Shown one piece after another: positions 170 to 50,109 of a stretch of 50,109 nucleotides of DNA (the first letter of the stretch is position 1; every line of letters begins with the position of its first letter). The notes beneath the pieces were generated by a model that made no database searches, was not told where the DNA came from, and saw only the letters and a list, made by a program, of their open reading frames with translations. Position numbers and translations under genes: made by a program. The stretch is from positions 1 to 50,109 of IMG/VR virus record IMGVR_UViG_3300025383_000034; one strand, 5' to 3'. The stretch is from a virus.

Positions 170-394
170 TTACGCTGTCAGTGCTGCCACTTCGTCAGCG
201 GTTAGCCCCAATGCGGTGAGCTTGGCGATAGCGGCTGCTTTCGCATCTGCCTTTGCCTTCTCTGCTGCATCAGCGACTGCCTTGTCAGCGGCGGCTTGTG
301 CGGCTGCTGCCTCGGCTGCTGCAATTTCTTCAGCGGTTTGTGGGCGAGTGGTTACTTCTTTTGTCTCGCAGTTAATGTCGACTACATCTGCCAT
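170..394 (-). CDS. Small alanine-rich coiled-coil protein (allele A)
   Basis: The 74-residue product starts MADV and contains a long run of Ala, Glu and Lys from about residue 24 to 55 that would form a helix or coiled coil. It ends in LTALGLTADEVAALTA. The start has an AAGGAG site that lies inside the end of the upstream HNH gene, so the two are translationally coupled. The allele at 42254-42478 differs at only a few residues, mostly near the N-terminus. Its position at the end of the fibre operon suggests a small virion or assembly protein; I do not recognise a named family. Confidence 0.75.
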   Translation of the reverse strand: MADVVDINCETKEVTTRPQTAEEIAAAEAAAAQAAADKAVADAAEKAKADAKAAAIAKLTALGLTADEVAALTA

Positions 395-962
395 GATTGT
401 TCTCCTTGTTCAGTAGATGTGGTGCATACAACTCTAGTATTTCTAAAGCGTATTTAATTTTGTCTTCGGGTCTTTGTCCAGCGGGTTGTCTTATGTTCCA
501 CAACTCTAGGTTTTCTATTCTGTTGTCGTGGCGCACACCGTTTTTATGATGAACCTGTTCCCATTGGGTTAACGGTCTGCCAAGAAACTCGGACATTACT
601 TTCCGATGCTCCAGGACATAGCCGTTGCCAGCCGAATTTGGATTAGCAGGTTCGTAAATGCTTATATAGCCAGACCTGTTGACAATGCGAGAGCCTTTAA
701 TTACCTTGCCTGGCTTGGCATGAACATCGCCATAAAGAGCCATGCGGCGATAGTGCATTTGGCATAACCCTTGCGCGCAATGCTTTTTATCGCATCCATT
801 AACGGTGCAGGTTAGGTGCTTTACTTGCCGCCCACGGCCATTGCCCATTAAAGGATTGCCATATTTTTTGGATCTAGCCAAATGCTTTGGGCAATACAGT
901 TTTGAAGTTTTATCGCTGGTGCAACCTTCTACGGTGCATGGGTAACTATTGGTGTAACTCAT
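372..962 (-). CDS. HNH homing-type endonuclease (allele A)
   Basis: The 196-residue protein has two Cys-rich units near the N-terminus (CTVEGC at residues 9-14 and CTVNGCDKKHC near 52-62) that look like zinc-binding DNA-recognition elements. A C-terminal HNH core follows (QVHHKNGVRHDN, then NLELWN). This arrangement is typical of free-standing phage HNH nucleases that spread by cutting alleles lacking them. It sits between two structural genes and its end overlaps the next gene by 23 bases. The last 22 or so codons, including DKIKYALEILELYAPHLL, are nearly the same as in the different HNH gene at 42471-42887, while the rest is unrelated at DNA level. Confidence 0.85.
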   Translation of the reverse strand: MSYTNSYPCTVEGCTSDKTSKLYCPKHLARSKKYGNPLMGNGRGRQVKHLTCTVNGCDKKHCAQGLCQMHYRRMALYGDVHAKPGKVIKGSRIVNRSGYISIYEPANPNSAGNGYVLEHRKVMSEFLGRPLTQWEQVHHKNGVRHDNRIENLELWNIRQPAGQRPEDKIKYALEILELYAPHLLNKENNHGRCSRH

Positions 963-974
963 GCAATTAGTCTA

Positions 975-1502
975 TCACGAATTGCGAATGCCGTAGAGAT
1001 AGAAGGATGAATATTGAGCGTAAGAATCGCCGCTAACTGGGGTAAAAGTTATTGAAGTTACTGCCCCAGTATAGGACGAAAGCCCAGCGGATAATCCCAT
1101 AAATGTTGCGGTTCCATTATTTTCAATAACAAAATCTGAGGATATGGATTTATTATAAGAAGTGTTTGCGTAATTAGGAATATACAATTCACCATTACCA
1201 AACGTGCTTCCAGTTGCACCACCGCTAGGGTGATACTCGCTTAAATTTAACGAAGTTGTTGATGTTGAAGCAGAAGAAGGCGAGCCAGAACCTTGACCAA
1301 ATAAAAGTTTGGAAGAATAACTGGTGGAACCGCTTAGCGTAATTAAAGAGTTGTCTTGCAAATCGCTGCTTTGTGTGCCGCGAATTGAAAATGTTAACTT
1401 TAAATCGGTATAAGTCTGCGGAATTGACGAGAAGGTAACCGAAGCGGCTCCGCCAGAACCGACTACTTGGCTTGCGATGAGGTTATATGTTGAAGTTGCC
1501 AT
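975..1502 (-). CDS. Tail-tip/fibre protein paralogue 1 (allele A)
   Basis: The 175-residue protein is rich in Ser, Thr and Gly. It opens TYNLIASQVVG, continues with the family motif TFSSIPQTYTDL near residue 23 and closes YSSFYLYGI. Two further genes of the same family lie directly upstream (1503-1994 and 1994-2563), forming a tandem array. The counterpart at 42934-43449 keeps both ends but differs through the middle, as expected for a receptor-contacting surface. The fold is probably beta-rich. A fibre or tip role is inferred from composition, tandem paralogy and location. Confidence 0.75.
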   Translation of the reverse strand: MATSTYNLIASQVVGSGGAASVTFSSIPQTYTDLKLTFSIRGTQSSDLQDNSLITLSGSTSYSSKLLFGQGSGSPSSASTSTTSLNLSEYHPSGGATGSTFGNGELYIPNYANTSYNKSISSDFVIENNGTATFMGLSAGLSSYTGAVTSITFTPVSGDSYAQYSSFYLYGIRNS

Positions 1503-1994
1503 TTATGCCGCCAAAATTCCGTAGAGGGTCAGCGATGTTCCAGCCGCCATATTTGCGCTAACTAATAATGTATTGATTGCAGCGCTACTTCTCCACAATC
1601 CAACACTTGCTGTTGTTTCATTACCGGCACCACCAGTTCTCATCAAAATAGATTTATAAACTGAAGTGTTTGCGTAGTTTTGAAATTTGCAAATTATTGT
1701 TGATTGTCCAGAAGCGGCGGCGTTGATAAAAGCCTGTAATTGATTTGTTGAAGTGGTTCTATTTGAATTTGCAACTGAACCAGTTCCCGACACAAAAGTT
1801 TGAGAATAATTTGCCAATGGATCCGCTGAGCCATTTCCAAATTGAAAAATTGGATTTGTTGCGCTTGATGGGGCTAGATTTAATACCAATTCTAAATCGG
1901 TATAAGTTGTAGGAATAGAATTAAATGTGTACGACGATGCGCTTGACCCAAATGTTGTTGTTGCAATCGGTGTATATGTTTGTGCGCTAGCCAT
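1503..1994 (-). CDS. Tail-tip/fibre protein paralogue 2 (allele A)
   Basis: This 163-residue member of the same family has YTPIATTTFG near the start, FNSIPTTYTDL near residue 25 and LTLYGILAA at the end. It starts at ATG 1994, overlapping the stop of the upstream paralogue by one base (TAATG), so translation is coupled. The allele at 43452-43970 has the same first and last segments and a different central region. It likely contributes to host-receptor binding; no enzymatic motif is visible. Confidence 0.75.
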   Translation of the reverse strand: MASAQTYTPIATTTFGSSASSYTFNSIPTTYTDLELVLNLAPSSATNPIFQFGNGSADPLANYSQTFVSGTGSVANSNRTTSTNQLQAFINAAASGQSTIICKFQNYANTSVYKSILMRTGGAGNETTASVGLWRSSAAINTLLVSANMAAGTSLTLYGILAA

Positions 1995-2563
1995 TATTTA
2001 ACTCCATACAAAGCAAAGGAAGAATACTGCACATAAGGAGAATAGTCTGGAAGAATTGTAAAACTACTAATTGGGTCAGAAATATTTGATCCAGTCCCAG
2101 ACTTAAACCATACGCCCGAACCAATTTCTATTAAACCAGAACCATTAGCGTCTGTACCCATAAGGTACCGATGAGTTTTATATTTATTAGTATTTGTGTA
2201 ATCAAGAATATCTACAACATTTGCAGAAAAATATCCCGAAGCTCCGCCGGAACCACCAAGCCAGCCACGAGTTTGAGAAGCGTAACCGTAGGCAGTAACC
2301 GCTGAACCATTACCTTGTAACCAATGCTGAGAGTAGTTAGACCCTGTATCTCCATTAAATTGGATATTCATTCCGTCAGTAATAGCACCAGAACGACTTG
2401 TTTGCGCAATTATACGAAGTTGTAAGTGTGTATAAGTGCTTGGAATAGAAGAAAAAGTTATTGTGCTTGCCCCACCTGAACCAACGGTTTGCGTAGCAAT
2501 CGAAGTGTAGTTACCACCCAAATGCCCCGATATTCCAGAGGCTAATATGCCAGGTAGAATCAT
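1994..2563 (-). CDS. Tail-tip/fibre protein paralogue 3 (copy A)
   Basis: Starting at ATG 2563, which overlaps the upstream stop in an ATGA arrangement, the protein has 189 residues. A short hydrophobic Gly-rich lead (MILPGILASGISGHLGG) precedes the family core YTSIATQTVGSGG and FSSIPSTYTHL, and it ends YSSFALYGVK. The lead is not a convincing signal peptide. The copy at 43973-44542 differs by only one residue that I can see (Ser to Asn near the C-terminus). This gene contains the point where the two haplotypes become identical. Confidence 0.75.
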   Translation of the reverse strand: MILPGILASGISGHLGGNYTSIATQTVGSGGASTITFSSIPSTYTHLQLRIIAQTSRSGAITDGMNIQFNGDTGSNYSQHWLQGNGSAVTAYGYASQTRGWLGGSGGASGYFSANVVDILDYTNTNKYKTHRYLMGTDANGSGLIEIGSGVWFKSGTGSNISDPISSFTILPDYSPYVQYSSFALYGVK

Positions 2564-2916
2564 GCAATATCTCCAAGCACTAACCAAGTATTCGCAGCCG
2601 TCTGAATTGCAGAAGCGCCGCTGTACTGCACACGGGTCTTAGGAGCCGAAGCGGTTGAGCCATTGGAAACAATGGTTACGCCTGAGCCTTGAGTAATAGT
2701 CGTCTGGCCAGCGCCAGTCTGGGCAATGTTCAAGATAGTGCCGACTGGAAAAGCCACCGATGAGTTTGGTGGAATGGTGAAGGTGTTAGCCGATGCGTTG
2801 TTGATCGTAACAAGCGTATTGCTACCATCGCCAAGGACTGCGGTGTACGAAGCAGACTGGGCATTGACGTTGATGGTAGGCGAGACTGCGTTGTTATTGA
2901 GTAATGATACAGCCAT
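2560..2916 (-). CDS. Small beta-rich tail protein, paralogous to the C-terminus of the 255-residue protein
   Basis: The 118-residue protein consists of Asn/Thr/Ser-rich beta-like sequence: TFTIPPNSSVAFPVGT, then NIAQTGAGQTTI, ending in WLVLGDIA. The same succession (TLTIPSG, NIQQTGAGQVTV, FTLIGDIA) forms the end of the protein at 3230-3997, so the two genes share a module by duplication. This module resembles the ends of phage fibre proteins. The gene is embedded in a tightly coupled operon with one-base and four-base overlaps. Confidence 0.75.
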   Translation of the reverse strand: MAVSLLNNNAVSPTINVNAQSASYTAVLGDGSNTLVTINNASANTFTIPPNSSVAFPVGTILNIAQTGAGQTTITQGSGVTIVSNGSTASAPKTRVQYSGASAIQTAANTWLVLGDIA

Positions 2917-3230
2917 TAGAGCGTTACTCCTGTCGCAGTAAAGTCGGTGTTAGCCGTTGTGGAATACACTGAAAGTGTATCTCCAGTAGCTAACGTCCAG
3001 CCTGGGTTTTCGTGGATTGTGCTGTTGCCAGGTACGGTAAAACCGTAGTACTGGTAATAAGCCGATCCACCAGACTTAGTAATCGATACACGAATTGTAT
3101 CAGATGATGAGCCTTTGTTGCAGACAGTAAATGAGGAAACAATGCTGCCGTTGGTGCTACCTGTGACAAGTGTTGTCAAGGTAGTAGCCGATGGCGTGGA
3201 CTGTCCAAGAACGACGTATGCTGTTGCCAT
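2916..3230 (-). CDS. Small beta-rich tail/fibre protein
   Basis: The 104-residue protein is Thr/Ser-rich. It contains SSFTVCNKGSSSDTIRVSI and a GDTLSVYSTTANTDFTATG ending, the pattern of a small beta-sandwich virion protein. It overlaps both neighbours by one base. It probably belongs to the distal tail structure; a specific role cannot be read from the sequence. An identical copy lies at 44895-45209. Confidence 0.7.
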   Translation of the reverse strand: MATAYVVLGQSTPSATTLTTLVTGSTNGSIVSSFTVCNKGSSSDTIRVSITKSGGSAYYQYYGFTVPGNSTIHENPGWTLATGDTLSVYSTTANTDFTATGVTL

Positions 3231-3997
3231 TACGCAATGTCTCCAATCAAGGTGAAGGTGTTGGTTGCTACGCAGATAATGGTTGCAGCCGAGTATTGGG
3301 TACGCAGCTTGGTGCCTGTACCCGTAAAGGTTGATGTGCCGTCGTTGGCTACGGTTACCTGACCTGCGCCAGTTTGCTGGATGTTGACGGCTTGACCGAC
3401 GCTAAACACACCCGATGGGATAGTCAGGGTAATTGAGCCAGTATTGTAGAGCGTTACCAGCTTGGCTGCGTCAGCAGCTACAAGGGTGTAACTCGTACCA
3501 GTCTGAGCATTAATGCCCATGCTGATAACTGGCGAGGTAAGAACCGCTGAGCCGATGGTTGGGGCTGTGCCAAATACTGCCGATCCAGAGCCTGTCTCAT
3601 CTGGCAGCAAGGCTGCCAAGTTAGCCGAGGTTGGAGTTGTTAAGAATGTGCCAAGGGCACCCGTAATACCGTGTACGCCATTAGGGCCAGAGCCGATGTG
3701 CGCTCCAGCATCTGTCATATCCTGAGCTGTAATCACGTGACGGACAACAGCACCAGAGTTGTGAGCCTGAGCAGTGGTTCCGTTAAAGCCACGCTGAACC
3801 GTCAGGGTCAAACCTGAAATGTTGGTAACGAGTACCAGCTCTTCGGCAGAGGTGTTGTAGTCAACAGCAAGCACAAATGGAAAGCTGCCTGGGTAACCTA
3901 CAGTAGCTCCAACCACCATGGTGGTGGCAGAGTTAGTCATCGCCGAAGTGAGCGTCGTATCCTGCGCCGTAGCGCTGTAATATCTATTTTGTGCCAT
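3230..3997 (-). CDS. Tail fibre-like structural protein (255 residues)
   Basis: The N-terminal part (about 1-90) carries LTSAMTNSATTMVV and LVTNISGLTLTVQRGFNGTTAQAH, a pattern common at the base of phage fibre proteins. A Gly/Pro linker follows (GPNGVHGITGALG), then a C-terminal beta module shared with the 118-residue neighbour. The mix of an attachment domain and a variable-type tip suggests a fibre or its adaptor. It lies just downstream of the connector-like gene. An identical copy lies at 45209-45976. Confidence 0.75.
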   Translation of the reverse strand: MAQNRYYSATAQDTTLTSAMTNSATTMVVGATVGYPGSFPFVLAVDYNTSAEELVLVTNISGLTLTVQRGFNGTTAQAHNSGAVVRHVITAQDMTDAGAHIGSGPNGVHGITGALGTFLTTPTSANLAALLPDETGSGSAVFGTAPTIGSAVLTSPVISMGINAQTGTSYTLVAADAAKLVTLYNTGSITLTIPSGVFSVGQAVNIQQTGAGQVTVANDGTSTFTGTGTKLRTQYSAATIICVATNTFTLIGDIA

Positions 3998-4006
3998 CTG
4001 CCTGCC

Positions 4007-4897
4007 TTAGCGAGAGTAGTGTGTGCGTGGTGGATATTGTTCTTGCTGGCGACGAATTTCCACCTGCAAGCGTTGCTGGTACATCTGATAGAAATAGCGA
4101 GACATGTTGGTAGCAGAGCCAACTGGGTTGGACTGTTGCTGCGCATCCGCTTCAGCGGTGATGGCTGGGATACGGCCCATGTCAATATAGGCAGCTGAGC
4201 GATACGCTGCGCCAAGGATGATTACTTCACGGCACGACTCTGGCAAACCAGTCAATGTAAAGTCATCGTTATCGTTTTGTAGCTGAGTAGGCTTTTTGGT
4301 GTAGACAACCTGAACAGTACGACCTGGGATAATTCCATCGGAGATGGAGATAGTCTTGCCGCTGTTCCACGCTAGTGGGTTAGCTGTACGGTCAATGCGG
4401 TAGTGGCGAACTGGTAGCCATTCTAAAGAAGGCCCGATGGTCTGCCACGATACTGCCAAAGCGTCGATAGCTTCCTGCGGTAGCTGGTAGGTAGTACGAG
4501 CTGCAATGAATGGGAAGGTTGTGTAGTACACGCCAAACAAGTCTGGATAGATAGCGTCAATCGCTTCGTTAATATCCTTACGGATCATGGCCCGTGGGAA
4601 TGAAGGAGTGATGGTAACGCGTGTACCCGCAGTGTGTGGCACTGGGGTTGTATCTCTAAAACCACGACCATATGGCGGAATGGTCGCAGTGTTGGTGGTG
4701 CGGTCAAACGAGTCAACCCAGATTAGCTCTTCGTCAATTTCGACAATACCGCGTGTAAGGACTGTTCCATCGGCTACCGTAAAGGTAGTCGCTGTGGCAC
4801 TTAGGTCCGCAGTAAGGAATGTGGCTTGGTCCTGGCGAGAGGTATAGCCTGTGAGGGCTAGTGCCGTCTCATCAATTAAATCAGAGAATAAAGTCAC
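4007..4897 (-). CDS. Head-tail connector / adaptor-like protein
   Basis: The 296-residue protein begins MTLFSDLIDETALALTGY and has a beta-rich insertion (TFTVADGTVLTRGIVEIDEE) and a helical middle (MIRKDINEAIDAIYPDLF). It also carries the segment ESCREVIILGAAYRSA and ends in a Gln/Arg-rich helix. This helical-bundle-plus-tail layout fits adaptor proteins below the portal (the P22 gp4 or T7 gp11 role). The assignment is inferred from architecture and gene order. The GTG start overlaps the upstream stop by four bases. Identical copy at 45986-46876. Confidence 0.6.
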   Translation of the reverse strand: MTLFSDLIDETALALTGYTSRQDQATFLTADLSATATTFTVADGTVLTRGIVEIDEELIWVDSFDRTTNTATIPPYGRGFRDTTPVPHTAGTRVTITPSFPRAMIRKDINEAIDAIYPDLFGVYYTTFPFIAARTTYQLPQEAIDALAVSWQTIGPSLEWLPVRHYRIDRTANPLAWNSGKTISISDGIIPGRTVQVVYTKKPTQLQNDNDDFTLTGLPESCREVIILGAAYRSAAYIDMGRIPAITAEADAQQQSNPVGSATNMSRYFYQMYQQRLQVEIRRQQEQYPPRTHYSR

Positions 4898-5178
4898 GAT
4901 GCAATCCTTGCTGCTGCTTCTGCCTCGCCAATACCGTAGGTACCAGCCAGTGCGTTTAATACGCCAGGTGTGTCTAACTTGAGGTTCACTCCGCCATTGC
5001 GGTAAGCGTAAATCTGGTTGAGTGCGTCAATACCACGGGTTGCATTGTGGCCAGGGATGACAGCGTCAGCCCATTTTACGCAAGCACCGTTAAAGTCGTA
5101 CTGAGGTACGCCGTTGATAATAGTGCCAGCTAAACGGTTGATGTGATACACCGTAGACAACCCGCCGTAATTTGCCAT
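4894..5178 (-). CDS. Small structural protein of unknown role
   Basis: The 94-residue protein opens MANYGGLSTVYHINRLAG and has GIDALNQIYAYRN and LDTPGVLNALAGTYGIGEAEAAARIAS. It has no transmembrane segment or catalytic motif. The operon position immediately before the connector-like gene and the coupled start suggest a virion or assembly protein. Identical copy at 46873-47157. Confidence 0.7.
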   Translation of the reverse strand: MANYGGLSTVYHINRLAGTIINGVPQYDFNGACVKWADAVIPGHNATRGIDALNQIYAYRNGGVNLKLDTPGVLNALAGTYGIGEAEAAARIAS

Positions 5179-5346
5179 TTACTTGCCTTTCTTGGAATGG
5201 TATTTCTTTGTAGCCTTAACACCAGCGGCAATGGTCTTAACTCCAGCCACTTTGGTTAGGTCAATAACTTTGCCACTCTTATGCTTGACAACCACATCTT
5301 TGGTAATGGTGTGAGTCTTACCACCAACCTTGATTGTCTTTGCCAT
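5179..5346 (-). CDS. Basic 55-residue protein, DNA-binding-like
   Basis: The ORF starts at ATG 5346 (overlapping the upstream stop by one base) and stops directly before the next start. The product is dominated by Lys, Thr and Val: MAKTIKVGGKTHTITKDVVV at the start and KKYHSKKGK at the end. The strong positive charge suggests contact with nucleic acid, perhaps a minor virion DNA-packing protein. No known family is recognised. Identical copy at 47158-47325. Confidence 0.7.
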   Translation of the reverse strand: MAKTIKVGGKTHTITKDVVVKHKSGKVIDLTKVAGVKTIAAGVKATKKYHSKKGK

Positions 5347-5462
5347 TACTTAGTGCCGCCTACGCCCTTATATTCGCCATAAGGAGTTTTGGTTGGCTTG
5401 CCAGTGAGCTTCTCGTCAAGCTTGCCAATGGCGTTCTTATCGCAGCCACATTCTTTGCACAT
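5346..5462 (-). CDS. Cys-containing 38-residue miniprotein
   Basis: The ORF from ATG 5462 encodes MCKECGCDKNAIGKLDEKL and ends KGVGGTK. A CxxCxC motif at residues 2-7 could bind a metal. A longer upstream extension would overlap the previous gene in another frame, so 5462 is the better start. It is tightly packed between two basic small proteins. Identical copy at 47325-47441. Confidence 0.65.
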   Translation of the reverse strand: MCKECGCDKNAIGKLDEKLTGKPTKTPYGEYKGVGGTK

Positions 5463-5463
5463 A

Positions 5464-5634
5464 TTACTTACCTTTAACTTTCTTGAGGTTTGGGTTTTTC
5501 TTCTTTGCTGCTGGACTTGCATTACGAGCGCCAGCTGCAAGAATTGCACCAGCGTTCTTCATAGGAATACCTTGCTTCTTAGAAATAGACTTTGCCGCTG
5601 CGGCAAAACCCATACCCTTTTTTGCTGCTGCCAT
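5464..5634 (-). CDS. Basic Ala/Lys-rich 56-residue protein
   Basis: Starting at ATG 5634 (TAATG overlap with the previous stop), the product begins MAAAKKGMGFAAAAKSISKK, includes AGAILAAGARNASPAAKKK and ends KKVKGK. Its histone- or protamine-like composition is consistent with binding DNA in the virion. Function unknown. Identical copy at 47443-47613. Confidence 0.7.
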   Translation of the reverse strand: MAAAKKGMGFAAAAKSISKKQGIPMKNAGAILAAGARNASPAAKKKNPNLKKVKGK

Positions 5635-6030
5635 TAGAGCGCACCAACTTCCTTCATAGTGTTTGCGAGTGGTTTATCTATCTTTGATGCGGCTGGCATA
5701 TACTCTGCGTTGTACGCCGTACCAAGCTTGTCACTAGCAGCCTTAGCTTCCTGGACTGCCTTCATGGTTGTGCCTGCTGGCTGAATACCTTGTGAGCGAG
5801 CATCCGCGTAGGCGTTCAGCTCTGCGTTCCACTTCTTGTTGCTCATGCTGTCAGCTCGGCCAGCATCGCCTGTGCTTAGCTCTAGTGTGCGGAGCTTGCA
5901 GCCAAAGCAGCCATCGATATAATCAGTATGGTTAAGATGATCCGATGGTGTTTCTTCAACCACTGGCGGAGTTGTGAAAACTTCGTCGCATCCAGTGCAA
6001 CCATATTCAACGGGAATAGAGTTGTAACTC

Positions 6031-9094
<3,064 letters not shown>

Positions 9095-9102
9095 GCCTGC
9101 TC

Positions 9103-9360
9103 CTAAACCGTTGTGATGTTAGCGCCGTAACCAGCGTTTGTTAAAATCGTATATTCCGCCTGGGACAGTACATACTCATGTCCACCCAAGTAGCAGTAGT
9201 CTGCTGACTGAGTATCTTGTACGGCAGGGGTACGCGTACTAACTACGGCTGTACCGAATACAAGAATTGAATTTGCCCGTGGTAAGCGATAACGCCAAAA
9301 CAATATGCCAAAGCCCGCAGGGCCTTCTTCCACCGTAGGTGGTTTGAAAACATATGCCAT
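9103..9360 (-). CDS. Small virion protein downstream of the capsid gene
   Basis: The 85-residue protein begins MAYVFKPPTVEEGPAGFG and contains LFWRYRLPRANSILVFG. AAAGG precedes the start at a good distance. It has no recognised family. Its place immediately after the capsid gene, separated by a hairpin, suggests a small head protein such as a decoration or head-completion protein. Confidence 0.65.
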   Translation of the reverse strand: MAYVFKPPTVEEGPAGFGILFWRYRLPRANSILVFGTAVVSTRTPAVQDTQSADYCYLGGHEYVLSQAEYTILTNAGYGANITTV

Positions 9361-9388
9361 GTGCTACCTTTCAATAGGGGTGTTGCCA

Positions 9389-9412
9389 CCCAGCCCCACG
9401 TGCGAGGCTGGG
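9389..9412 (-). promoter_or_regulatory. Intercistronic hairpin after the capsid gene
   Basis: A perfect 7-base-pair stem (CCCAGCC at 9389-9395 and GGCTGGG at 9406-9412) lies in the short gap between capsid stop and next gene. There is no T-run, so it is not a classic terminator. It could stabilise the capsid mRNA or reduce read-through, setting the high capsid to low neighbour ratio. Confidence 0.5.
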
Positions 9413-9428
9413 AGACAACTAACTCAAA

Positions 9429-10472
9429 TTAAGAGTTGTGGATCGAAGATGTTGATTCGATACGAACCAAAGCTGCGTCACGGTAACGTGCCCAGCCAAG
9501 AACGCCGTACCATCCGATTGGACGGAAACGCATCAACTTATCAACGACTGGACCGAACACGACATGTGGCTCTTCAGCAACTGCTTCAGCCAATGCTTGC
9601 TTTCCAGCAACGAGTGTACGGAAGACGCGAACGCCACCAGTAGCGTAGACGTAAGACGATGTTCCGAAGGTGCCTGTTGCACCAGTAGAACCTGTACCGT
9701 CGGTTGTGTTGAACAAACGTGGTGATTCTACGAACATTGCGCCTTCGTAAGTTCCGATGGTGCCTGGCCAAAATTCAGCTGCACCTGTCTCGGAGAACTT
9801 GTGGTCATCGCGCCATCCGCCTGAGCCTGTCTCAGAACGAAGGTCGAATGAAACTTCTGGGTGAATACCACACCAGTAGTATTCTCCTTGACGTGGGACA
9901 GCCTTGTTTGCACGAAGCTTAGCCACTGCGGTACGAATATCGCGTGACTTGATTACGTCAGTGTTGCGGATTGTAGCCGCGGTTGTTCCGTTGGTGTATG
10001 AACCAGCGTAGGTTGAAACAAGGTTACCGTTAACTTCTGCGATAGCATTTGGGCCACCGATGAGAACGTTAAGGACGTTTGTGTCAAGTGAGTCAGCCAT
10101 GTTGAAGGCGATAATATCTGCAATCGCTGGGTCAACATCTGAGAGTGAGAACAACTCAAGCTTACGAGTTGTTAATGATGCATTTCCGTATTCAAGGAGA
10201 GATACGGAAATTGGGGTTGTGTTTCCAAGTGCTACTGCATCTGGATCAACATCTTCTGAGAGAGAAGAAGTTACTGCGGTCATGTCTGTGTAAATCTGGA
10301 ATACAACAGACGAACCTGGCATTGCTTGCTGTACTGGGCGCTTATCTGCAACGTCGCGGATAAGAGGAACAGCACGAAGGGCAAACTCTACATAGCGATC
10401 ATAAGCGGTCTGTACTAAGCCTGGAATACCAGCGGTAGAGCCGATTGAGTCGGTATATTGATTACCTGCCAT
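9429..10472 (-). CDS. Major capsid protein (N4-gp56-like family)
   Basis: The start at ATG 10472 (MAGNQYTDSIG) follows an AGGTG site; an upstream in-frame GTG would add three residues. The 347-residue protein has the features of this coat family: an N-terminal segment with FALRAVPLIRDVADKRPV, VVFQIYTDMTAVTSSL, the segment LLEYGNASLTTRKLELFSL, and DVDPAIADIIAFNMADSLD. It ends with VDKLMRFRPIGWYGVLGWA. It would form the icosahedral shell. It lies directly downstream of a scaffold-like gene, the usual order. Confidence 0.88.
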   Translation of the reverse strand: MAGNQYTDSIGSTAGIPGLVQTAYDRYVEFALRAVPLIRDVADKRPVQQAMPGSSVVFQIYTDMTAVTSSLSEDVDPDAVALGNTTPISVSLLEYGNASLTTRKLELFSLSDVDPAIADIIAFNMADSLDTNVLNVLIGGPNAIAEVNGNLVSTYAGSYTNGTTAATIRNTDVIKSRDIRTAVAKLRANKAVPRQGEYYWCGIHPEVSFDLRSETGSGGWRDDHKFSETGAAEFWPGTIGTYEGAMFVESPRLFNTTDGTGSTGATGTFGTSSYVYATGGVRVFRTLVAGKQALAEAVAEEPHVVFGPVVDKLMRFRPIGWYGVLGWARYRDAALVRIESTSSIHNS

Positions 10473-10518
10473 TTGCGTCACCTACTTTCTTTGGGTATAT
10501 TGTGCGTTGATGGGTTGT

Positions 10519-11010
10519 TTAACGACGGCCGCGGCCAGTAACCGATTGTCCGAATACCAGCATGTCAAGCTCTTCTCTTGTCTTAACGCCAGCCAACTTC
10601 GCCGCTGCGTCTACGTCGCGGGAAGGGGTATTTGCGTTTTGAAGAGAGGCGTTGATACGCTGCATCTCACGGGCAGTTGGGTTTTCTGGTGCTTCCGATG
10701 AAGCATCTTCACTCACGGTAAAACCAAACACATCAGCGTTCTCGTTTAACCATGCGTCAATCTGCTCAGGCGTACTTACGTCGCCAGGAATGAACTTGGC
10801 GATCTTTGTGGATACGCCTTTCTGTTCCAATACTTCCTTGACGGAACGACCACGAAGGTCTGCTTGAATGTTTGCTAGCTGTTCAGCCAGTTCCTTCTTT
10901 TCGCGCTCAGCGCGCTTTAATGCCTTGCGAAGATTAGCTGGGCCATTCTGGTCCTGCTGAACTTCATCAAGCTCTAGATCGTCTTCGTCTTCTTCGTATT
11001 GGTTTGCCAT
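10519..11010 (-). CDS. Scaffold / capsid assembly-like protein
   Basis: The start at ATG 11010 follows GGGAG. The 163 residues are highly acidic at the N-terminus (EEDEDDLELDE), then a charged coiled coil (LRKALKRAEREKKELAEQL), and end in a basic GRGRR. Acidic, helical and placed just before the capsid gene is the usual pattern for a scaffolding protein that guides shell assembly and leaves or is cleaved. The basic tail is the typical coat-binding end. Assigned from composition and order. Confidence 0.75.
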   Translation of the reverse strand: MANQYEEDEDDLELDEVQQDQNGPANLRKALKRAEREKKELAEQLANIQADLRGRSVKEVLEQKGVSTKIAKFIPGDVSTPEQIDAWLNENADVFGFTVSEDASSEAPENPTAREMQRINASLQNANTPSRDVDAAAKLAGVKTREELDMLVFGQSVTGRGRR

Positions 11011-11138
11011 GTGGCACTCCCTTTTCTGTTGGTTGGACGCAGGCCGCAGCATTTCCCAGGGGAAGGAATGTTGGCTCCTACTACCAGTCTGAAATACACG
11101 TCATCCATGCTGGTCAGTGGTGACGGAACTTGATGGGC

Positions 11139-12374
11139 TTAGGAAACGCCCTGGCTTTCTGTATAGAGGCTGCCCTTGGAAGCGCCCGAAGAACCAGAAA
11201 ATTCGTTAACTTCCTGTGCGCGCAAGCGAGCTAAATCTTGCTGAGCCTGAGCTGCGCTCACTCCATTGATATTGGAGTTGAATGTAGCTGCTGTCAAAGC
11301 GTTGCCGATATTGCCAGCGTTCATATTGTATGTGCTAGCAAGCGCTTGCTGCTGGCCAAGTTGAGAACCAATGGTTGTAAATCCTTGAGCTGCCTGCGCT
11401 TGGGTTACACCAGCGGCAGCAAGGGTTGCAGCGTTCTGTTGGTTAAGGGCAAGGTTTTGACGACCTGCTTCGCCTTGAATTTGAGAAGCTTGAACCTTCT
11501 GAGCGATGACGCTAGAGGCTGTAGCTGGGTCAAGAAGGTGACCAATCATGTCACCCTTTGTTAAACCAAAATTCTGCTGAAGCTGTTGCAAAGTGAAAGG
11601 GTCTGTTGCGGTTACAGCTGCTGTAGCAGCATCTACGCGCTGTTGAACTTCAGCTGGAGAAACGTCAGTGCCGATAAGGTTACCCAAGACTGCTGGATCC
11701 ATATGAGCAGCGTCCATGCCTGCACGGGCCATAACTGCCTTGTATGAGTTTTCAGTGCTGATATAGTCAGCTGGAGAAAGCGGCGTAAGGCCAGCCTTTT
11801 CGCGAGCAACGTTGCCAGAAAAGCGAGTATTCCAAGCGTTGGCTAATGCCACAACATTTGGGTCTTTAGAAGACGCAGCGGTTGGGTCTTGGATAAGGTT
11901 CTGAATTGTTGCAGCATCATAATTCTTTTGCTGCAATCCAAGGATAGCGTTTGATATAGCGCCCGTTGGGTCAATGCCATAGCCAGCCAAAGTGGACTGC
12001 AGAAGAGTTAAAGCGTTTTGATTAGTTATCTGCGTGTTGAGCGCAGCTTGACCAGCGGCTGCGTTTTGTCCAGCTTGAAGGGTGTTAATAAGCTTAGTCT
12101 GGTCATCAAGCTGTTTTTGAAGAGCTGTTAATTGAGCCGAATTATCGGTTGGCTTAATGTCATTTCCCGTGCCGCTACTTCCAGCGGTTGAACCTGTCGC
12201 TCCTTGCTTCGCAGGCGCGGCGGCAGATGAGGAAGATGCGGCTGGGGTAGATAGCGCACCAGTATAACCACCAGGCACATAACCATAATTGTTTGCGCTT
12301 GAGGCTGGGATAGCTGAAGATGGCTTTGCAGCTGGCGCAGGAGCGACAGCTCTATCAAGATTTTGATCAAGCAT
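11139..12374 (-). CDS. Internal virion-like protein, Ala/Gln-rich (411 residues)
   Basis: The ATG start overlaps the upstream stop (TAATG). The first 85 residues are low-complexity Ala/Ser/Pro. From there on the protein is helical and Gln-rich (QLTALQKQLDDQTKLINTL, AGLTPLSPADYISTENSYKA) and ends SLYTESQGVS. It is one of four consecutive genes (11139-19540) of similar style. In podoviruses this zone encodes proteins packed inside the head and ejected with DNA. That role is inferred. Confidence 0.65.
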   Translation of the reverse strand: MLDQNLDRAVAPAPAAKPSSAIPASSANNYGYVPGGYTGALSTPAASSSSAAAPAKQGATGSTAGSSGTGNDIKPTDNSAQLTALQKQLDDQTKLINTLQAGQNAAAGQAALNTQITNQNALTLLQSTLAGYGIDPTGAISNAILGLQQKNYDAATIQNLIQDPTAASSKDPNVVALANAWNTRFSGNVAREKAGLTPLSPADYISTENSYKAVMARAGMDAAHMDPAVLGNLIGTDVSPAEVQQRVDAATAAVTATDPFTLQQLQQNFGLTKGDMIGHLLDPATASSVIAQKVQASQIQGEAGRQNLALNQQNAATLAAAGVTQAQAAQGFTTIGSQLGQQQALASTYNMNAGNIGNALTAATFNSNINGVSAAQAQQDLARLRAQEVNEFSGSSGASKGSLYTESQGVS

Positions 12375-42253: not shown

Positions 42254-42478
42254 TTACGCTGTCAGCGCTGCCACTTCGTCGGCGGTTAAGCCGAGAGCGG
42301 TGAGCTTGGCGATTGCCGCTGCTTTTGCATCTGCCTTAGCCTTCTCTGCTGCATCAGCGGCTGCCTTGTCAGCGGCGGCTTGTGCGGCTGCTGCCTCGGC
42401 TGCTGCAATTTCTTCAGCGGTTTGTGGGCGAGTGGTGGTAATTCCAGTCTCGCAATTAATCTCAATAACATCAGCCAT
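42254..42478 (-). CDS. Small alanine-rich coiled-coil protein (allele B)
   Basis: 74 residues, the same as at 170-394 except for a handful of changes near the N-terminus (MADVIEINCETGITTTRPQT here) and one Val-to-Ala. The identical Ala/Glu/Lys helix and C-terminus show strong conservation between two otherwise diverged neighbours. Confidence 0.75.
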   Translation of the reverse strand: MADVIEINCETGITTTRPQTAEEIAAAEAAAAQAAADKAAADAAEKAKADAKAAAIAKLTALGLTADEVAALTA

Positions 42479-42887
42479 TGCTGTTCTCCTTGTTCAGTAG
42501 GTGTGGTGCATACAACTCTAGTATTTCTAAAGCGTATTTAATTTTGTCTGGTATTCGTTGCCCTTTGGGCTGACGGGTATTCCATACCTCTAGGTTCTCG
42601 ATACGGTTATCCGCCCTATTGCCATTTATGTGGTGGACATTTTCCTCTGGCAATAATGTTCTTCCAAGATGCACTTCCATGAAGTGCCTGTGCTGGAGCA
42701 TACCTTTACCGTTGACTGTTATTTTGATATAGCCATCGGTTCCTGGTTTGGCGGTTCTAACCGTCACAAAGGTTGCATCTCCGTAACGGTGCCACCTATG
42801 GTAATGCTTCTTGCACATTCCCCAGGCGGCAACCTGTCTGCCGCACTGCTCTATCTGGCAGCCAGTCGTATCTTTAGGTTTTGGCAT
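42471..42887 (-). CDS. HNH homing-type endonuclease (allele B)
   Basis: From ATG 42887 (MPKPKDTTGCQIEQCGRQVA) the protein has 138 residues with one zinc-finger unit (CQIEQC, CKKHYHRWHRYGD) and the HNH core ENVHHINGNRADNRIENLEV. It is shorter and has one finger fewer than the HNH at 372-962. The last 25 residues and DNA are almost the same in both, so two different nucleases occupy the same site with a shared end. It overlaps the alanine-rich gene start. Confidence 0.85.
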   Translation of the reverse strand: MPKPKDTTGCQIEQCGRQVAAWGMCKKHYHRWHRYGDATFVTVRTAKPGTDGYIKITVNGKGMLQHRHFMEVHLGRTLLPEENVHHINGNRADNRIENLEVWNTRQPKGQRIPDKIKYALEILELYAPHLLNKENSNG

Positions 42888-42933: not shown

Positions 42934-43449
42934 TTAGTGATTGGTAATGCCGTATAAGTAAAATGATGAGTACTGTACAAAGTTTCCAGAAGTGTTAACT
43001 ATAGTTACCCCATTGATCGCATAACTTGTAATCCATAATCCAGTTTGGATTGAAGAATAAGCAGTTGTTCCATTTGTCTCTAAAACACCATCCACGCTTA
43101 CTGATTTATTTGTAGTGGAAGTGTAATTTGGAATATATACATCATGGCTTGAAAATGTATTAAGTGTTGCGCTGGCACCATCAGCCGCATTTAAATAAAG
43201 ATTTGGGTTTGAATAGGTAGTTGGACTAGCGCCATTTCCTTCTAAACCTTTTGAACTTAAATTAGTGTCAGAAGTTGCACCATTAAAACGCAAATAAATT
43301 AAAGAATAGATATTTGCATTATCCCCTCGGGCTGAAATTTTAATTGCTAAATCGGTATAAGTTGTCGGAATGGATGAAAAAGTAATTGAAGAAACGGATG
43401 TTGCTCCGACTGTTTGACTCGCAATAAGATTATATGTTGAAGTTGCCAT
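42934..43449 (-). CDS. Tail-tip/fibre protein paralogue 1 (allele B)
   Basis: 171 residues with TYNLIASQTVGATSVSSITF at the start, SSIPTTYTDL and YSSFYLYGITNH at the end. The ends match the allele at 975-1502; roughly residues 35-150 do not align well. The pattern of constant anchor and variable middle is expected for a receptor-binding protein. Confidence 0.75.
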   Translation of the reverse strand: MATSTYNLIASQTVGATSVSSITFSSIPTTYTDLAIKISARGDNANIYSLIYLRFNGATSDTNLSSKGLEGNGASPTTYSNPNLYLNAADGASATLNTFSSHDVYIPNYTSTTNKSVSVDGVLETNGTTAYSSIQTGLWITSYAINGVTIVNTSGNFVQYSSFYLYGITNH

Positions 43450-43451
43450 AG

Positions 43452-43970
43452 TTACGCCGCCAAAATTCCGTAGAGGGTAAAGGTTGAGCCAGCGAGAATT
43501 GAACCACCAGAATAACTTGTTAAAGTTATGGCGTTAATTGCGGCGGTGCTACGCCACAGGCCAACTTCGGCACTTACGCCACGACCAGAAGCAGCAGCGC
43601 CATCTCTAAAAAGAAATGTTTTATAAGTACTTGTATTGGCGTAATTCATTAAATTTATTGTAGAAACATTGCCGCTATTTGTTGAATCGTTGCCATCGGA
43701 AGCATTTATTCTTATCCAGTTTTCGGCTTGTCGCCCACTACTGGCACTGCTTCCATTGCCAGCCAAAATTGTAACGCTATAATTACCACCAGTATCAACC
43801 GAACCGTTACCAACTTGCATATACAAAATTGTTCCAGCGGATGTATTTCCGTGATTACAAACCATTACCAAATCCGTATAAGTCGTTGGAATGGAAGTAA
43901 AGGAAACTGATGATGCGTTTGATGCAAGCGTCTGTGTTGCAATCGGTGTATATGTTGGTGCGCTAGCCAT
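43452..43970 (-). CDS. Tail-tip/fibre protein paralogue 2 (allele B)
   Basis: 172 residues, nine longer than the allele at 1503-1994. Shared blocks are YTPIAT, SIPTTYTDL, NYANTS, VGLWRS-AAIN and LYGILAA; the sequence between is different. Starts near the stop of the next paralogue with a two-base gap rather than the one-base overlap seen in allele A. Confidence 0.75.
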   Translation of the reverse strand: MASAPTYTPIATQTLASNASSVSFTSIPTTYTDLVMVCNHGNTSAGTILYMQVGNGSVDTGGNYSVTILAGNGSSASSGRQAENWIRINASDGNDSTNSGNVSTINLMNYANTSTYKTFLFRDGAAASGRGVSAEVGLWRSTAAINAITLTSYSGGSILAGSTFTLYGILAA

Positions 43971-43972
43971 AA

Positions 43973-44542
43973 TTATTTAACTCCATATAAAGCGAAGGAA
44001 GAATACTGCACATAAGGAGAATAGTCTGGAAGAATTGTAAAACTATTAATTGGGTCAGAAATATTTGATCCAGTCCCAGACTTAAACCATACGCCCGAAC
44101 CAATTTCTATTAAACCAGAACCATTAGCGTCTGTACCCATAAGGTACCGATGAGTTTTATATTTATTAGTATTTGTGTAATCAAGAATATCTACAACATT
44201 TGCAGAAAAATATCCCGAAGCTCCGCCGGAACCACCAAGCCAGCCACGAGTTTGAGAAGCGTAACCGTAGGCAGTAACCGCTGAACCATTACCTTGTAAC
44301 CAATGCTGAGAGTAGTTAGACCCTGTATCTCCATTAAATTGGATATTCATTCCGTCAGTAATAGCACCAGAACGACTTGTTTGCGCAATTATACGAAGTT
44401 GTAAGTGTGTATAAGTGCTTGGAATAGAAGAAAAAGTTATTGTGCTTGCCCCACCTGAACCAACGGTTTGCGTAGCAATCGAAGTGTAGTTACCACCCAA
44501 ATGCCCCGATATTCCAGAGGCTAATATGCCAGGTAGAATCAT
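43973..44542 (-). CDS. Tail-tip/fibre protein paralogue 3 (copy B)
   Basis: Same 189-residue protein as at 1994-2563, apart from one visible change (DPINSFTIL here, DPISSFTIL there). Sequence upstream of 44046 is diverging from copy A; from 44046 to 49562 the copies agree. Confidence 0.75.
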   Translation of the reverse strand: MILPGILASGISGHLGGNYTSIATQTVGSGGASTITFSSIPSTYTHLQLRIIAQTSRSGAITDGMNIQFNGDTGSNYSQHWLQGNGSAVTAYGYASQTRGWLGGSGGASGYFSANVVDILDYTNTNKYKTHRYLMGTDANGSGLIEIGSGVWFKSGTGSNISDPINSFTILPDYSPYVQYSSFALYGVK

Positions 44543-44895
44543 GCAATATCTCCAAGCACTAACCAAGTATTCGCAGCCGTCTGAATTGCAGAAGCGCCGC
44601 TGTACTGCACACGGGTCTTAGGAGCCGAAGCGGTTGAGCCATTGGAAACAATGGTTACGCCTGAGCCTTGAGTAATAGTCGTCTGGCCAGCGCCAGTCTG
44701 GGCAATGTTCAAGATAGTGCCGACTGGAAAAGCCACCGATGAGTTTGGTGGAATGGTGAAGGTGTTAGCCGATGCGTTGTTGATCGTAACAAGCGTATTG
44801 CTACCATCGCCAAGGACTGCGGTGTACGAAGCAGACTGGGCATTGACGTTGATGGTAGGCGAGACTGCGTTGTTATTGAGTAATGATACAGCCAT
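44539..44895 (-). CDS. Small beta-rich tail protein (copy B)
   Basis: Identical to the 118-residue protein at 2560-2916, with NIAQTGAGQTTI and the WLVLGDIA end shared with the 255-residue neighbour. Its role is the same: a probable distal tail component. Confidence 0.75.
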   Translation of the reverse strand: MAVSLLNNNAVSPTINVNAQSASYTAVLGDGSNTLVTINNASANTFTIPPNSSVAFPVGTILNIAQTGAGQTTITQGSGVTIVSNGSTASAPKTRVQYSGASAIQTAANTWLVLGDIA

Positions 44896-45209
44896 TAGAG
44901 CGTTACTCCTGTCGCAGTAAAGTCGGTGTTAGCCGTTGTGGAATACACTGAAAGTGTATCTCCAGTAGCTAACGTCCAGCCTGGGTTTTCGTGGATTGTG
45001 CTGTTGCCAGGTACGGTAAAACCGTAGTACTGGTAATAAGCCGATCCACCAGACTTAGTAATCGATACACGAATTGTATCAGATGATGAGCCTTTGTTGC
45101 AGACAGTAAATGAGGAAACAATGCTGCCGTTGGTGCTACCTGTGACAAGTGTTGTCAAGGTAGTAGCCGATGGCGTGGACTGTCCAAGAACGACGTATGC
45201 TGTTGCCAT
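44895..45209 (-). CDS. Small beta-rich tail/fibre protein (copy B)
   Basis: Identical to the 104-residue protein at 2916-3230, including the one-base overlaps with both neighbours. Probable small virion protein. Confidence 0.7.
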   Translation of the reverse strand: MATAYVVLGQSTPSATTLTTLVTGSTNGSIVSSFTVCNKGSSSDTIRVSITKSGGSAYYQYYGFTVPGNSTIHENPGWTLATGDTLSVYSTTANTDFTATGVTL

Positions 45210-45976
45210 TACGCAATGTCTCCAATCAAGGTGAAGGTGTTGGTTGCTACGCAGATAATGGTTGCAGCCGAGTATTGGGTACGCAGCTTGGTGCCTGTAC
45301 CCGTAAAGGTTGATGTGCCGTCGTTGGCTACGGTTACCTGACCTGCGCCAGTTTGCTGGATGTTGACGGCTTGACCGACGCTAAACACACCCGATGGGAT
45401 AGTCAGGGTAATTGAGCCAGTATTGTAGAGCGTTACCAGCTTGGCTGCGTCAGCAGCTACAAGGGTGTAACTCGTACCAGTCTGAGCATTAATGCCCATG
45501 CTGATAACTGGCGAGGTAAGAACCGCTGAGCCGATGGTTGGGGCTGTGCCAAATACTGCCGATCCAGAGCCTGTCTCATCTGGCAGCAAGGCTGCCAAGT
45601 TAGCCGAGGTTGGAGTTGTTAAGAATGTGCCAAGGGCACCCGTAATACCGTGTACGCCATTAGGGCCAGAGCCGATGTGCGCTCCAGCATCTGTCATATC
45701 CTGAGCTGTAATCACGTGACGGACAACAGCACCAGAGTTGTGAGCCTGAGCAGTGGTTCCGTTAAAGCCACGCTGAACCGTCAGGGTCAAACCTGAAATG
45801 TTGGTAACGAGTACCAGCTCTTCGGCAGAGGTGTTGTAGTCAACAGCAAGCACAAATGGAAAGCTGCCTGGGTAACCTACAGTAGCTCCAACCACCATGG
45901 TGGTGGCAGAGTTAGTCATCGCCGAAGTGAGCGTCGTATCCTGCGCCGTAGCGCTGTAATATCTATTTTGTGCCAT
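45209..45976 (-). CDS. Tail fibre-like structural protein (copy B)
   Basis: Identical to the 255-residue protein at 3230-3997: base-attachment part, Gly/Pro linker and the C-terminal module repeated in the 118-residue protein. Confidence 0.75.
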   Translation of the reverse strand: MAQNRYYSATAQDTTLTSAMTNSATTMVVGATVGYPGSFPFVLAVDYNTSAEELVLVTNISGLTLTVQRGFNGTTAQAHNSGAVVRHVITAQDMTDAGAHIGSGPNGVHGITGALGTFLTTPTSANLAALLPDETGSGSAVFGTAPTIGSAVLTSPVISMGINAQTGTSYTLVAADAAKLVTLYNTGSITLTIPSGVFSVGQAVNIQQTGAGQVTVANDGTSTFTGTGTKLRTQYSAATIICVATNTFTLIGDIA

Positions 45977-45985
45977 CTGCCTGCC

Positions 45986-46876
45986 TTAGCGAGAGTAGTG
46001 TGTGCGTGGTGGATATTGTTCTTGCTGGCGACGAATTTCCACCTGCAAGCGTTGCTGGTACATCTGATAGAAATAGCGAGACATGTTGGTAGCAGAGCCA
46101 ACTGGGTTGGACTGTTGCTGCGCATCCGCTTCAGCGGTGATGGCTGGGATACGGCCCATGTCAATATAGGCAGCTGAGCGATACGCTGCGCCAAGGATGA
46201 TTACTTCACGGCACGACTCTGGCAAACCAGTCAATGTAAAGTCATCGTTATCGTTTTGTAGCTGAGTAGGCTTTTTGGTGTAGACAACCTGAACAGTACG
46301 ACCTGGGATAATTCCATCGGAGATGGAGATAGTCTTGCCGCTGTTCCACGCTAGTGGGTTAGCTGTACGGTCAATGCGGTAGTGGCGAACTGGTAGCCAT
46401 TCTAAAGAAGGCCCGATGGTCTGCCACGATACTGCCAAAGCGTCGATAGCTTCCTGCGGTAGCTGGTAGGTAGTACGAGCTGCAATGAATGGGAAGGTTG
46501 TGTAGTACACGCCAAACAAGTCTGGATAGATAGCGTCAATCGCTTCGTTAATATCCTTACGGATCATGGCCCGTGGGAATGAAGGAGTGATGGTAACGCG
46601 TGTACCCGCAGTGTGTGGCACTGGGGTTGTATCTCTAAAACCACGACCATATGGCGGAATGGTCGCAGTGTTGGTGGTGCGGTCAAACGAGTCAACCCAG
46701 ATTAGCTCTTCGTCAATTTCGACAATACCGCGTGTAAGGACTGTTCCATCGGCTACCGTAAAGGTAGTCGCTGTGGCACTTAGGTCCGCAGTAAGGAATG
46801 TGGCTTGGTCCTGGCGAGAGGTATAGCCTGTGAGGGCTAGTGCCGTCTCATCAATTAAATCAGAGAATAAAGTCAC
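45986..46876 (-). CDS. Head-tail connector / adaptor-like protein (copy B)
   Basis: Identical to the 296-residue protein at 4007-4897. An adaptor contacts the portal, so lack of variation here, next to variable fibre genes, fits a structural constraint or a recent common origin. Confidence 0.6.
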   Translation of the reverse strand: MTLFSDLIDETALALTGYTSRQDQATFLTADLSATATTFTVADGTVLTRGIVEIDEELIWVDSFDRTTNTATIPPYGRGFRDTTPVPHTAGTRVTITPSFPRAMIRKDINEAIDAIYPDLFGVYYTTFPFIAARTTYQLPQEAIDALAVSWQTIGPSLEWLPVRHYRIDRTANPLAWNSGKTISISDGIIPGRTVQVVYTKKPTQLQNDNDDFTLTGLPESCREVIILGAAYRSAAYIDMGRIPAITAEADAQQQSNPVGSATNMSRYFYQMYQQRLQVEIRRQQEQYPPRTHYSR

Positions 46877-47157
46877 GATGCAATCCTTGCTGCTGCTTCT
46901 GCCTCGCCAATACCGTAGGTACCAGCCAGTGCGTTTAATACGCCAGGTGTGTCTAACTTGAGGTTCACTCCGCCATTGCGGTAAGCGTAAATCTGGTTGA
47001 GTGCGTCAATACCACGGGTTGCATTGTGGCCAGGGATGACAGCGTCAGCCCATTTTACGCAAGCACCGTTAAAGTCGTACTGAGGTACGCCGTTGATAAT
47101 AGTGCCAGCTAAACGGTTGATGTGATACACCGTAGACAACCCGCCGTAATTTGCCAT
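46873..47157 (-). CDS. Small structural protein of unknown role (copy B)
   Basis: Identical to the 94-residue protein at 4894-5178, with the same GTGA overlap into the adaptor-like gene. Confidence 0.7.
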   Translation of the reverse strand: MANYGGLSTVYHINRLAGTIINGVPQYDFNGACVKWADAVIPGHNATRGIDALNQIYAYRNGGVNLKLDTPGVLNALAGTYGIGEAEAAARIAS

Positions 47158-47325
47158 TTACTTGCCTTTCTTGGAATGGTATTTCTTTGTAGCCTTAACA
47201 CCAGCGGCAATGGTCTTAACTCCAGCCACTTTGGTTAGGTCAATAACTTTGCCACTCTTATGCTTGACAACCACATCTTTGGTAATGGTGTGAGTCTTAC
47301 CACCAACCTTGATTGTCTTTGCCAT
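47158..47325 (-). CDS. Basic 55-residue protein (copy B)
   Basis: Identical to 5179-5346: Lys/Thr/Val-rich with KKYHSKKGK at the end, probably nucleic-acid binding. Confidence 0.7.
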   Translation of the reverse strand: MAKTIKVGGKTHTITKDVVVKHKSGKVIDLTKVAGVKTIAAGVKATKKYHSKKGK

Positions 47326-47441
47326 TACTTAGTGCCGCCTACGCCCTTATATTCGCCATAAGGAGTTTTGGTTGGCTTGCCAGTGAGCTTCTCGTCAAGC
47401 TTGCCAATGGCGTTCTTATCGCAGCCACATTCTTTGCACAT
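47325..47441 (-). CDS. Cys-containing 38-residue miniprotein (copy B)
   Basis: Identical to 5346-5462, with the CxxCxC site at residues 2-7. Confidence 0.65.
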   Translation of the reverse strand: MCKECGCDKNAIGKLDEKLTGKPTKTPYGEYKGVGGTK

Positions 47442-47442
47442 A

Positions 47443-48009: not shown

Positions 48010-50109
<2,100 letters not shown>

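Follow-up and report, generated by a model that had tools for sequence, protein, structure and literature searches.

A fixed set of three paralogous phage genes as a putative heterotrimeric fibre tip with reassorting subunits

What do three adjacent paralogous phage genes encode when, between two strains, one stays nearly constant and the other two differ widely: a row of separate tip proteins, or the parts of one structure? The question is raised by the window, by which we mean the whole 50,109-base virus contig IMGVR_UViG_3300025383_000034 that was analysed. The initial annotation had described three adjacent genes with a common sequence plan, and this description stands; each of the two copies in the window comprises three paralogous open reading frames on the minus strand (Table 1), and 22 alignment columns are invariant in all six copies, including Y6, I9-A10, S26-I27-P28, T30-Y31-T32, L34 and L169-Y170-G171. 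No Pfam or PHROG family was found for the six trio proteins of the window; the names alpha, beta and gamma, with delta for a gene downstream, are given here to widespread proteins that lack a family in Pfam or PHROGs.

Table 1 Features of the two array copies, in window coordinates
Feature	Position	Strand	Basis or remark
alpha, copy A: first transcribed, 189 aa, N-terminal leader MILPGILASGISGHL	1994..2563 (ATG at 2563)	-	ORF; alpha class by tree and HMM
beta, copy A: 163 aa, begins directly with the domain, overlaps the alpha stop by 1 nt	1503..1994	-	ORF, class profile
gamma, copy A: 175 aa	975..1502	-	ORF; AlphaFold2 all-beta monomer
HNH endonuclease (HNH_3), copy A: between gamma and delta	372..962	-	PF13392, 34.3 bits (cut-off 24.8); phrog_20891
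delta, copy A: 74 aa, Ala-rich, helical-looking	170..394	-	Family downstream of nearly all trios
alpha, copy B: one amino-acid change from copy A	43973..44542	-	ORF comparison
beta, copy B: 172 aa, about half identical to copy A	43452..43970	-	ORF comparison
gamma, copy B: 171 aa, less than half identical to copy A	42934..43449	-	ORF comparison
HNH endonuclease, copy B	42471..42887	-	PF13392, 37.6 bits; start codon by eye, ORF extends to 42980
delta, copy B	42254..42478	-	Translation; DNA 90% identical to copy A
Zone from ~100% A/B identity (backbone and alpha) to unrelated beta/gamma alleles	1994..2067	n/a	A/B alignment

Two array copies at the ends of one contig

Self-comparison of the contig gave a 99.0% match between positions 1885-8022 and 43861-50001 at an offset of ~41,976, that is, a unit of ~41.98 kb with an 8-kb overlap at its ends; related contigs of 41,939, 42,276 and 42,802 bases fit a unit of ~42 kb. 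By its layout the window is a circular or terminally redundant phage genome of ~42 kb, unrolled past its own start, and because the contig ends overlap, the two apparent haplotypes are the two ends of a single contig. Between 2068 and ~7600 the two copies agree throughout; the final ~75 nt of the third gene along the contig contain three differences, after which identity drops abruptly. The right-hand overlap differs also at 7600-8022, inside a collagen-like repeat gene (7134-8750), so this gene too is variable between the strains. The sequence suggests two co-assembled strains that have alpha and the backbone in common and carry different beta-gamma alleles. Another contig, IMGVR_UViG_3300025390_000012 (L089 and L159; 48,607 bases), holds two copies of a phrog_7578 gene ~41.97 kb apart, and its ends are just ~74% alike over the tail region; this points either to two phages within a single contig or to a replacement that goes deeper.

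Terminase, portal and major head protein are recognisable in the window. The closest cultivated terminases, ~45% identical, belong to Streptomyces phages of the Beephvirinae (for example, Manuel), which have a similar gene order of terminase, portal and a ~1600-aa protein; they differ from the window in the trio, as tblastn found no member of the alpha, beta and gamma family in any cultivated phage. Among GTDB genome contigs the only match (L321, CAIXTG010000145.1) is in a MAG called an uncultured actinobacterium, a weak hint at the host that is consistent with the Streptomyces-phage-like terminases. The structural block of the window also includes a family 2 glycosyltransferase (PF00535; 6031-7119), placed between the collagen-like fibre gene and a phrog_7578 gene.

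Two genes with constant ends and replaced middles beside one nearly unchanged gene had been claimed, and this is largely what the copies contain; the unchanged gene, alpha (~99% identical), is first in transcription order, not third as had been stated. To place these differences, nucleotide identity between A and B was compared, segment by segment, with 300 random pairs of the same class. In beta, the first 33 codons were 0.747 identical (random 0.594 ± 0.066; 98th percentile), the middle 0.491 (45th) and the last 11 codons 0.818 (91st); the corresponding values in gamma were 0.667 (93rd), 0.476 (28th) and 0.727 (72nd). The beta and gamma middles are therefore as unlike as those of unrelated alleles, while the ends are a little more alike than family-wide end conservation predicts, clearly so for beta only. 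Four-fold sites in the first and last segments (identical at 10 of 17 and 5 of 7 in beta, 8 of 15 and 2 of 4 in gamma) are far from identical, and so the ends were not recently shared between A and B. Across the whole family the mean frequency of the majority residue falls from 0.69-0.73 over the first 33 columns to 0.49-0.53 in the middle and rises to 0.79-0.81 over the last 11; constant ends around a variable middle are thus mostly a property of the family, with some extra likeness of the ends in this pair. The bodies of the two HNH genes differ as well, and the ~300 bases that follow (the HNH end and delta) are 90% alike, which suggests that the endonuclease was exchanged together with beta and gamma.

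Alpha, beta and gamma as a set

To see how the genes are arranged elsewhere, IMG/VR was scanned with alpha, an upstream gene, a beta profile and a gamma profile, two reference loci were added, and arrays with at least half of their domains exactly shared were merged, which gave 215 unique arrays; each scan comprised its best 80 loci, making this a sample of at least 215 rather than a census. Arrays with more than 700 nt on both sides numbered 144, the 71 near contig ends being omitted. Among them, 133 had the order alpha-beta-gamma, six had two such sets, one had three, one was beta-alpha-gamma, two were alpha-beta-gamma with one weak domain ~1 kb upstream, and one appeared as alpha-beta; the last (L189) is truncated by its contig end, its beta ORF ending at 6314 of 6357. 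All 143 judgeable arrays from these sampled relatives thus consist of one, two or three complete alpha-beta-gamma sets. The same held in the scans that did not use alpha as query, at 48 of 49 arrays for beta (the exception again being L189) and 38 of 38 for gamma, and sequences inserted between subunits, HNH_3 endonucleases in seven of the seven tested, leave the set intact. The two weak upstream domains (L263 363-3326 and L270 2450-2938) are distant single relatives, at 41 and 35 bits; that of L263 caps a collagen-repeat protein at its C end and may be of a homotrimeric ancestor type.

Class membership follows gene position. On a FastTree phylogeny of 246 domains, in which the alpha and beta branches have weak support (30 and 80), the gene-position label needs three changes, against a minimum of two and a mean of 116 after shuffling. 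Profiles built from the first 82 sets separate members of the classes by a median of 90 bits, with a smallest margin of 16, and five loci with the order beta-alpha-gamma still have one gene of every class. In the sampled arrays, alpha, beta and gamma behave by sequence as three fixed, non-interchangeable classes that are always found as a set, and two features expected of an obligate heterotrimeric tail-tip complex, three distinct paralogues encoded together and clades of same-position proteins, are found here.

The ends of the proteins carry further clues to what they do. Leaders of at least 10 aa are the norm in alpha (209 of 217 proteins) and rare in beta (14 of 218) and gamma (14 of 212); at all five swapped loci it is beta that has the leader and alpha that has lost it, so the leader belongs to the first gene and not to a class. 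An fn3 stalk before alpha scored over the cut-off in two of three proteins tested (L176 and L207) and just under it in the other (L183), and L084 has a fusion across two sets, with an fn3-like segment (below the cut-off) linking gamma of the first to alpha of the second. C-terminal extensions of ~240-380 aa are confined to beta (14 of 218 proteins) and gamma (24 of 212), with none among 217 alpha proteins; four of five tested contain Gly_rich_2 (PF21722), which had no match in the trio proteins of the window, and the fifth (L227) had a weak fn3 match only. These adhesin and stalk fusions are our main argument for a fibre tip, and it is mainly from their presence in relatives that we infer receptor binding.

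Delta, an Ala-rich protein of 70-80 aa with the pattern I-E-V-N-C-x-T-G-E-V...L-T-A-E-E, is encoded within 2.5 kb downstream of 109 of the 113 arrays with enough flank (for example, L166 8918-9148), and in the window it lies beyond the HNH gene. It had no Pfam match over the cut-off and only weak matches to PHROGs of unassigned function. From its position, size and helical look, our guess is a chaperone for fibre folding or assembly, for which the fibre chaperone gp57A of T4 would be the analogue.

Exchange of subunits with borders in the gene ends

We wondered whether the behaviour of the two window copies, with one subunit kept and two replaced, is general. Among 203 distinct sets (5,050 sampled pairs per subunit), nearly all pairs were 30-65% identical and almost none 65-75%. 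A subunit at 75% or above was shared by 27 pairs, a few of which are not independent, as L015 and L016 are near-duplicates: alpha alone was common to 10 pairs, beta alone to 5 and gamma alone to 9, with 1 pair sharing alpha and gamma and 2 sharing all three. Exactly one subunit is therefore common in 24 of the 27, the window copies being one of the alpha-only pairs. As alpha can stay unchanged while beta and gamma are replaced, co-adaptation at the interfaces cannot be tight.

The borders of exchange were located by pairwise BLAST of 194 array regions, taking tracts of at least 82% identity and at least 200 bases. Of 166 tract ends inside arrays (132 pairs), most fell near the gene ends, 97 within the last 17 codons and 57 within the first 40; a further 3 were intergenic and 9 mid-gene, where uniform placement would put 62%; BLAST runs through the conserved ends, so exact borders are blurred there, and borders in mid-gene would not be hidden. 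This count omits same-locus pairs, except the two copies of the window, and L015/L016, one contig of which ends in the array; an independent subset of 80 tract ends comprised 40 in last codons, 32 in first codons, 3 intergenic and 5 in middles. A sharp view of such a border comes from L018/L028, which are 96-97% identical over alpha codons 13-33 and 28% over the next twelve. A changepoint test on 62 five-prime and 66 three-prime pairs (29 of each independent) located the breaks around the array ends, between ~30 codons outside and 31 codons inside; it omitted pairs similar at codons 41-60 and is blind to mid-gene breaks. That cassettes are exchanged with breakpoints at the conserved blocks, as had been proposed, is thus supported by the 157 of 166 tract ends that avoid gene middles.

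A peak of dN/dS in the middles had also been expected, and here the prediction failed: within allele lineages, pooled omega over 23 comparisons was lower in the middle (0.145) than in the ends (0.183), by which we reject intragenic positive selection. One comparison, beta of L043/L019, had an omega of 12 at a dS of just 0.003. Selection within shared alleles is purifying.

Could the mosaics, including the two haplotypes of the window, have arisen in metagenome assembly, as chimeras joined at short blocks of conserved sequence? The relatives are without exception metagenomic, the window contains two strains in one contig and the borders fall in conserved blocks; yet beta alleles shared alone have diverged since exchange, with dS of 0.20 (L204/L210), 0.57 (L222/L221), 0.62 (L261/L196) and 0.69 (L217/L258), unlike chimeras formed within a sample, and an independent contig matches window positions 3210-11897 at 100% over 8,688 bases, though it ends before the array. 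With dS at 0.2-0.7 in four of five beta-only pairs, we take the exchanges to be old rather than artefacts of assembly, which makes chimerism a very improbable general account; one low-dS pair, L049/L128, has a dS of 0.027 and could be a chimera. Contig ends showed no clear pile-up at the array across 80 anchor loci. Constant ends with a variable middle also bear a superficial similarity to the targets of a diversity-generating retroelement or a DNA invertase, an origin to which we give next to no probability: whole middles with insertions and deletions are replaced, rather than adenine positions, and the beta and gamma alleles are unrelated, not inverted. A retroelement was in addition rejected on the absence of reverse transcriptase (PF00078) from the record (0 of 1; controls positive in 4 of 14).

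A candidate fibre tip and its counterparts

Structure prediction supports the beta fold that had been expected. AlphaFold2 predicted the gamma monomer of copy A as all-beta with 12 strands (pLDDT 86.6, pTM 0.85), and the L176 trio, read through its stops as a single chain, was also modelled by AlphaFold2 (pLDDT 82.6, pTM 0.82), with values below 50 only in linkers, short loops or ends; its trio alignment had 27 rows, its placement was checked, and it was the best placed among 25 random draws, while alignment A6 was set aside because it appeared to align lone domains with the trio's alpha portion. For three well-folded domains in arbitrary placement we estimate from the pTM formula an expected pTM of ~0.36, so at 0.82 the model is confident that the three domains pack together. 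This supports trimer-like packing in the predicted model, which, as a tethered chain of paralogues, cannot separate a heterotrimer from three homotrimers.

The gamma model had 120 matches in BFVD at E ≤ 0.001, many of them uncultured phage proteins and some annotated as glycine-rich, fibronectin, collagen or side-tail-fibre repeats. Foldseek returned no PDB match to the gamma monomer at E ≤ 0.001, and the best VIA matches, to fructofuranosidases, reached a Z of 7.6; profile searches of PDB sequences were empty or gave single chance matches, and kinship to a solved structure was rejected on these results. For the trio model, 157 PDB matches had E ≤ 0.001; TM is under 0.3 among the 50 listed, with probabilities that are low except for the two-domain galectin-8 (0.97), and we gave these matches no weight. 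Foldseek found no assembly similar to the trio model in the PDB.

Taken together, the sequences lead us to infer, with fair confidence, that the trio forms an obligate heterotrimeric fibre tip, with subunits that reassort by recombination in the conserved gene ends. Alpha, beta and gamma would be non-interchangeable, paralogous subunits that join 1:1:1 into a beta-sandwich heterotrimer, sited distally on a phage tail fibre or tip. The first gene, alpha, would supply the leader or stalk by which it is fixed to the virion; the other two would complete the trimer, and in relatives they also bear adhesin domains; delta may help folding or assembly. Each subunit would be drawn from a very large pool of old, stable alleles, and homologous recombination in the conserved gene ends (the first ~33 and the last ~11 codons) would replace one or two genes at once, perhaps sometimes helped by the neighbouring HNH endonucleases.

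Three other readings bear on this model. The trio could be a stack of three different homotrimers along the fibre, with alpha at the base, then beta and gamma, and every layer essential; this likewise predicts one gene per class and duplication of whole sets, and the L084 fusion of one set's gamma to the next set's alpha would suit it, but the five beta-alpha-gamma loci, with the leader moved from alpha to beta, would require the stack to have been rebuilt, and a gamma layer would have to accommodate the adhesin extensions that beta also bears, so we think it unlikely. We regard as equally unlikely a structural or decoration complex of the tail or capsid without host recognition, whose variety would be neutral divergence and recombination: the dominance of purifying selection in both middles and ends fits it, as do window proteins without a known binding domain, whereas backbone DNA that is 82-97% identical stops sharply at the array, where trio alleles are ~47% identical, and Gly_rich_2 and fn3 fusions of adhesin type argue against it. 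The model implicit in the initial annotation, an expandable array of separate receptor-binding proteins with one receptor each, does account for alleles of each gene being swapped independently; it is largely refuted by the set rule and is now highly improbable, since the classes do not substitute for one another and only whole sets of three occur, two of them with the distant weak extra domain.

Most phage receptor-binding fibres are described as homotrimers, with specificity changed by swapping the tip of one gene. Building on the heterotrimeric model, we hold it possible, if tentatively, that recognition is combinatorial: phages with different backbones would draw alpha, beta and gamma independently from old, purified allele pools into one asymmetric tip, and the combination of three subunits would set host specificity, as paired antibody chains do, with the gene ends serving as trimer core and as recombination joints. 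If true, a heterotrimer of three independently reassorting chains would multiply the available specificities and explain why environmental phages with near-identical backbones differ strongly in their tail tips; it also predicts 1:1:1 assembly of arbitrary allele combinations.

Among domains with a similar setting, the Gly_rich_2 tail domains, for which S16-type gp38 polyglycine adhesins are a comparison system, sit C-terminally on beta and gamma relatives, whereas the trio core forms an all-beta sandwich of its own. Collagen-stalked trimers of the C1q/TNF type resemble the trio in the all-beta sandwich and, through the weak L263 domain, in capping a collagen-repeat protein; the VIA matches include C1QL2 (Z 6.3), and as Z below 8 is common in unrelated sandwiches and the monomer had no PDB match at E ≤ 0.001, kinship is unsupported.

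Heterotrimers of three tandem tail proteins are already published (PMC12724248; PMC13252515). In the virophage DSLV2, three consecutive paralogue-like tail proteins form a 1:1:1 heterotrimer by co-expression, native PAGE and EM, and same-position proteins cluster in trees, as here (PMC12724248). They differ in coming from a virophage and in containing the PF07484 collar domain, to which none of the six window proteins matched at E ≤ 0.1, and by this test the trio is not of the DSLV2 family; the accessible part of that paper does not describe gene-by-gene reassortment with borders at the ends (PMC12724248). In the actinobacterial mycobacteriophage Mysterious, three adjacent products, gp35, gp36 and gp37, form a fibre-like heterotrimer in the baseplate by cryo-EM (PMC13252515, preprint). 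By the accessible description, to which the likeness is limited, each has a beta-sandwich-like core as in this trio, and they differ in belonging to a siphophage baseplate and in their beta-hairpin arms and C-terminal extensions (PMC13252515). Sequence searches of the PDB with this family returned no relative, in a copy that may lack the Mysterious entries. As far as the open-access PubMed Central literature shows, what is new here is the family itself, the strict set rule over 143 arrays, the delta gene, a leader that moves with gene order, and a reassortment of individual genes whose borders lie in the conserved ends.
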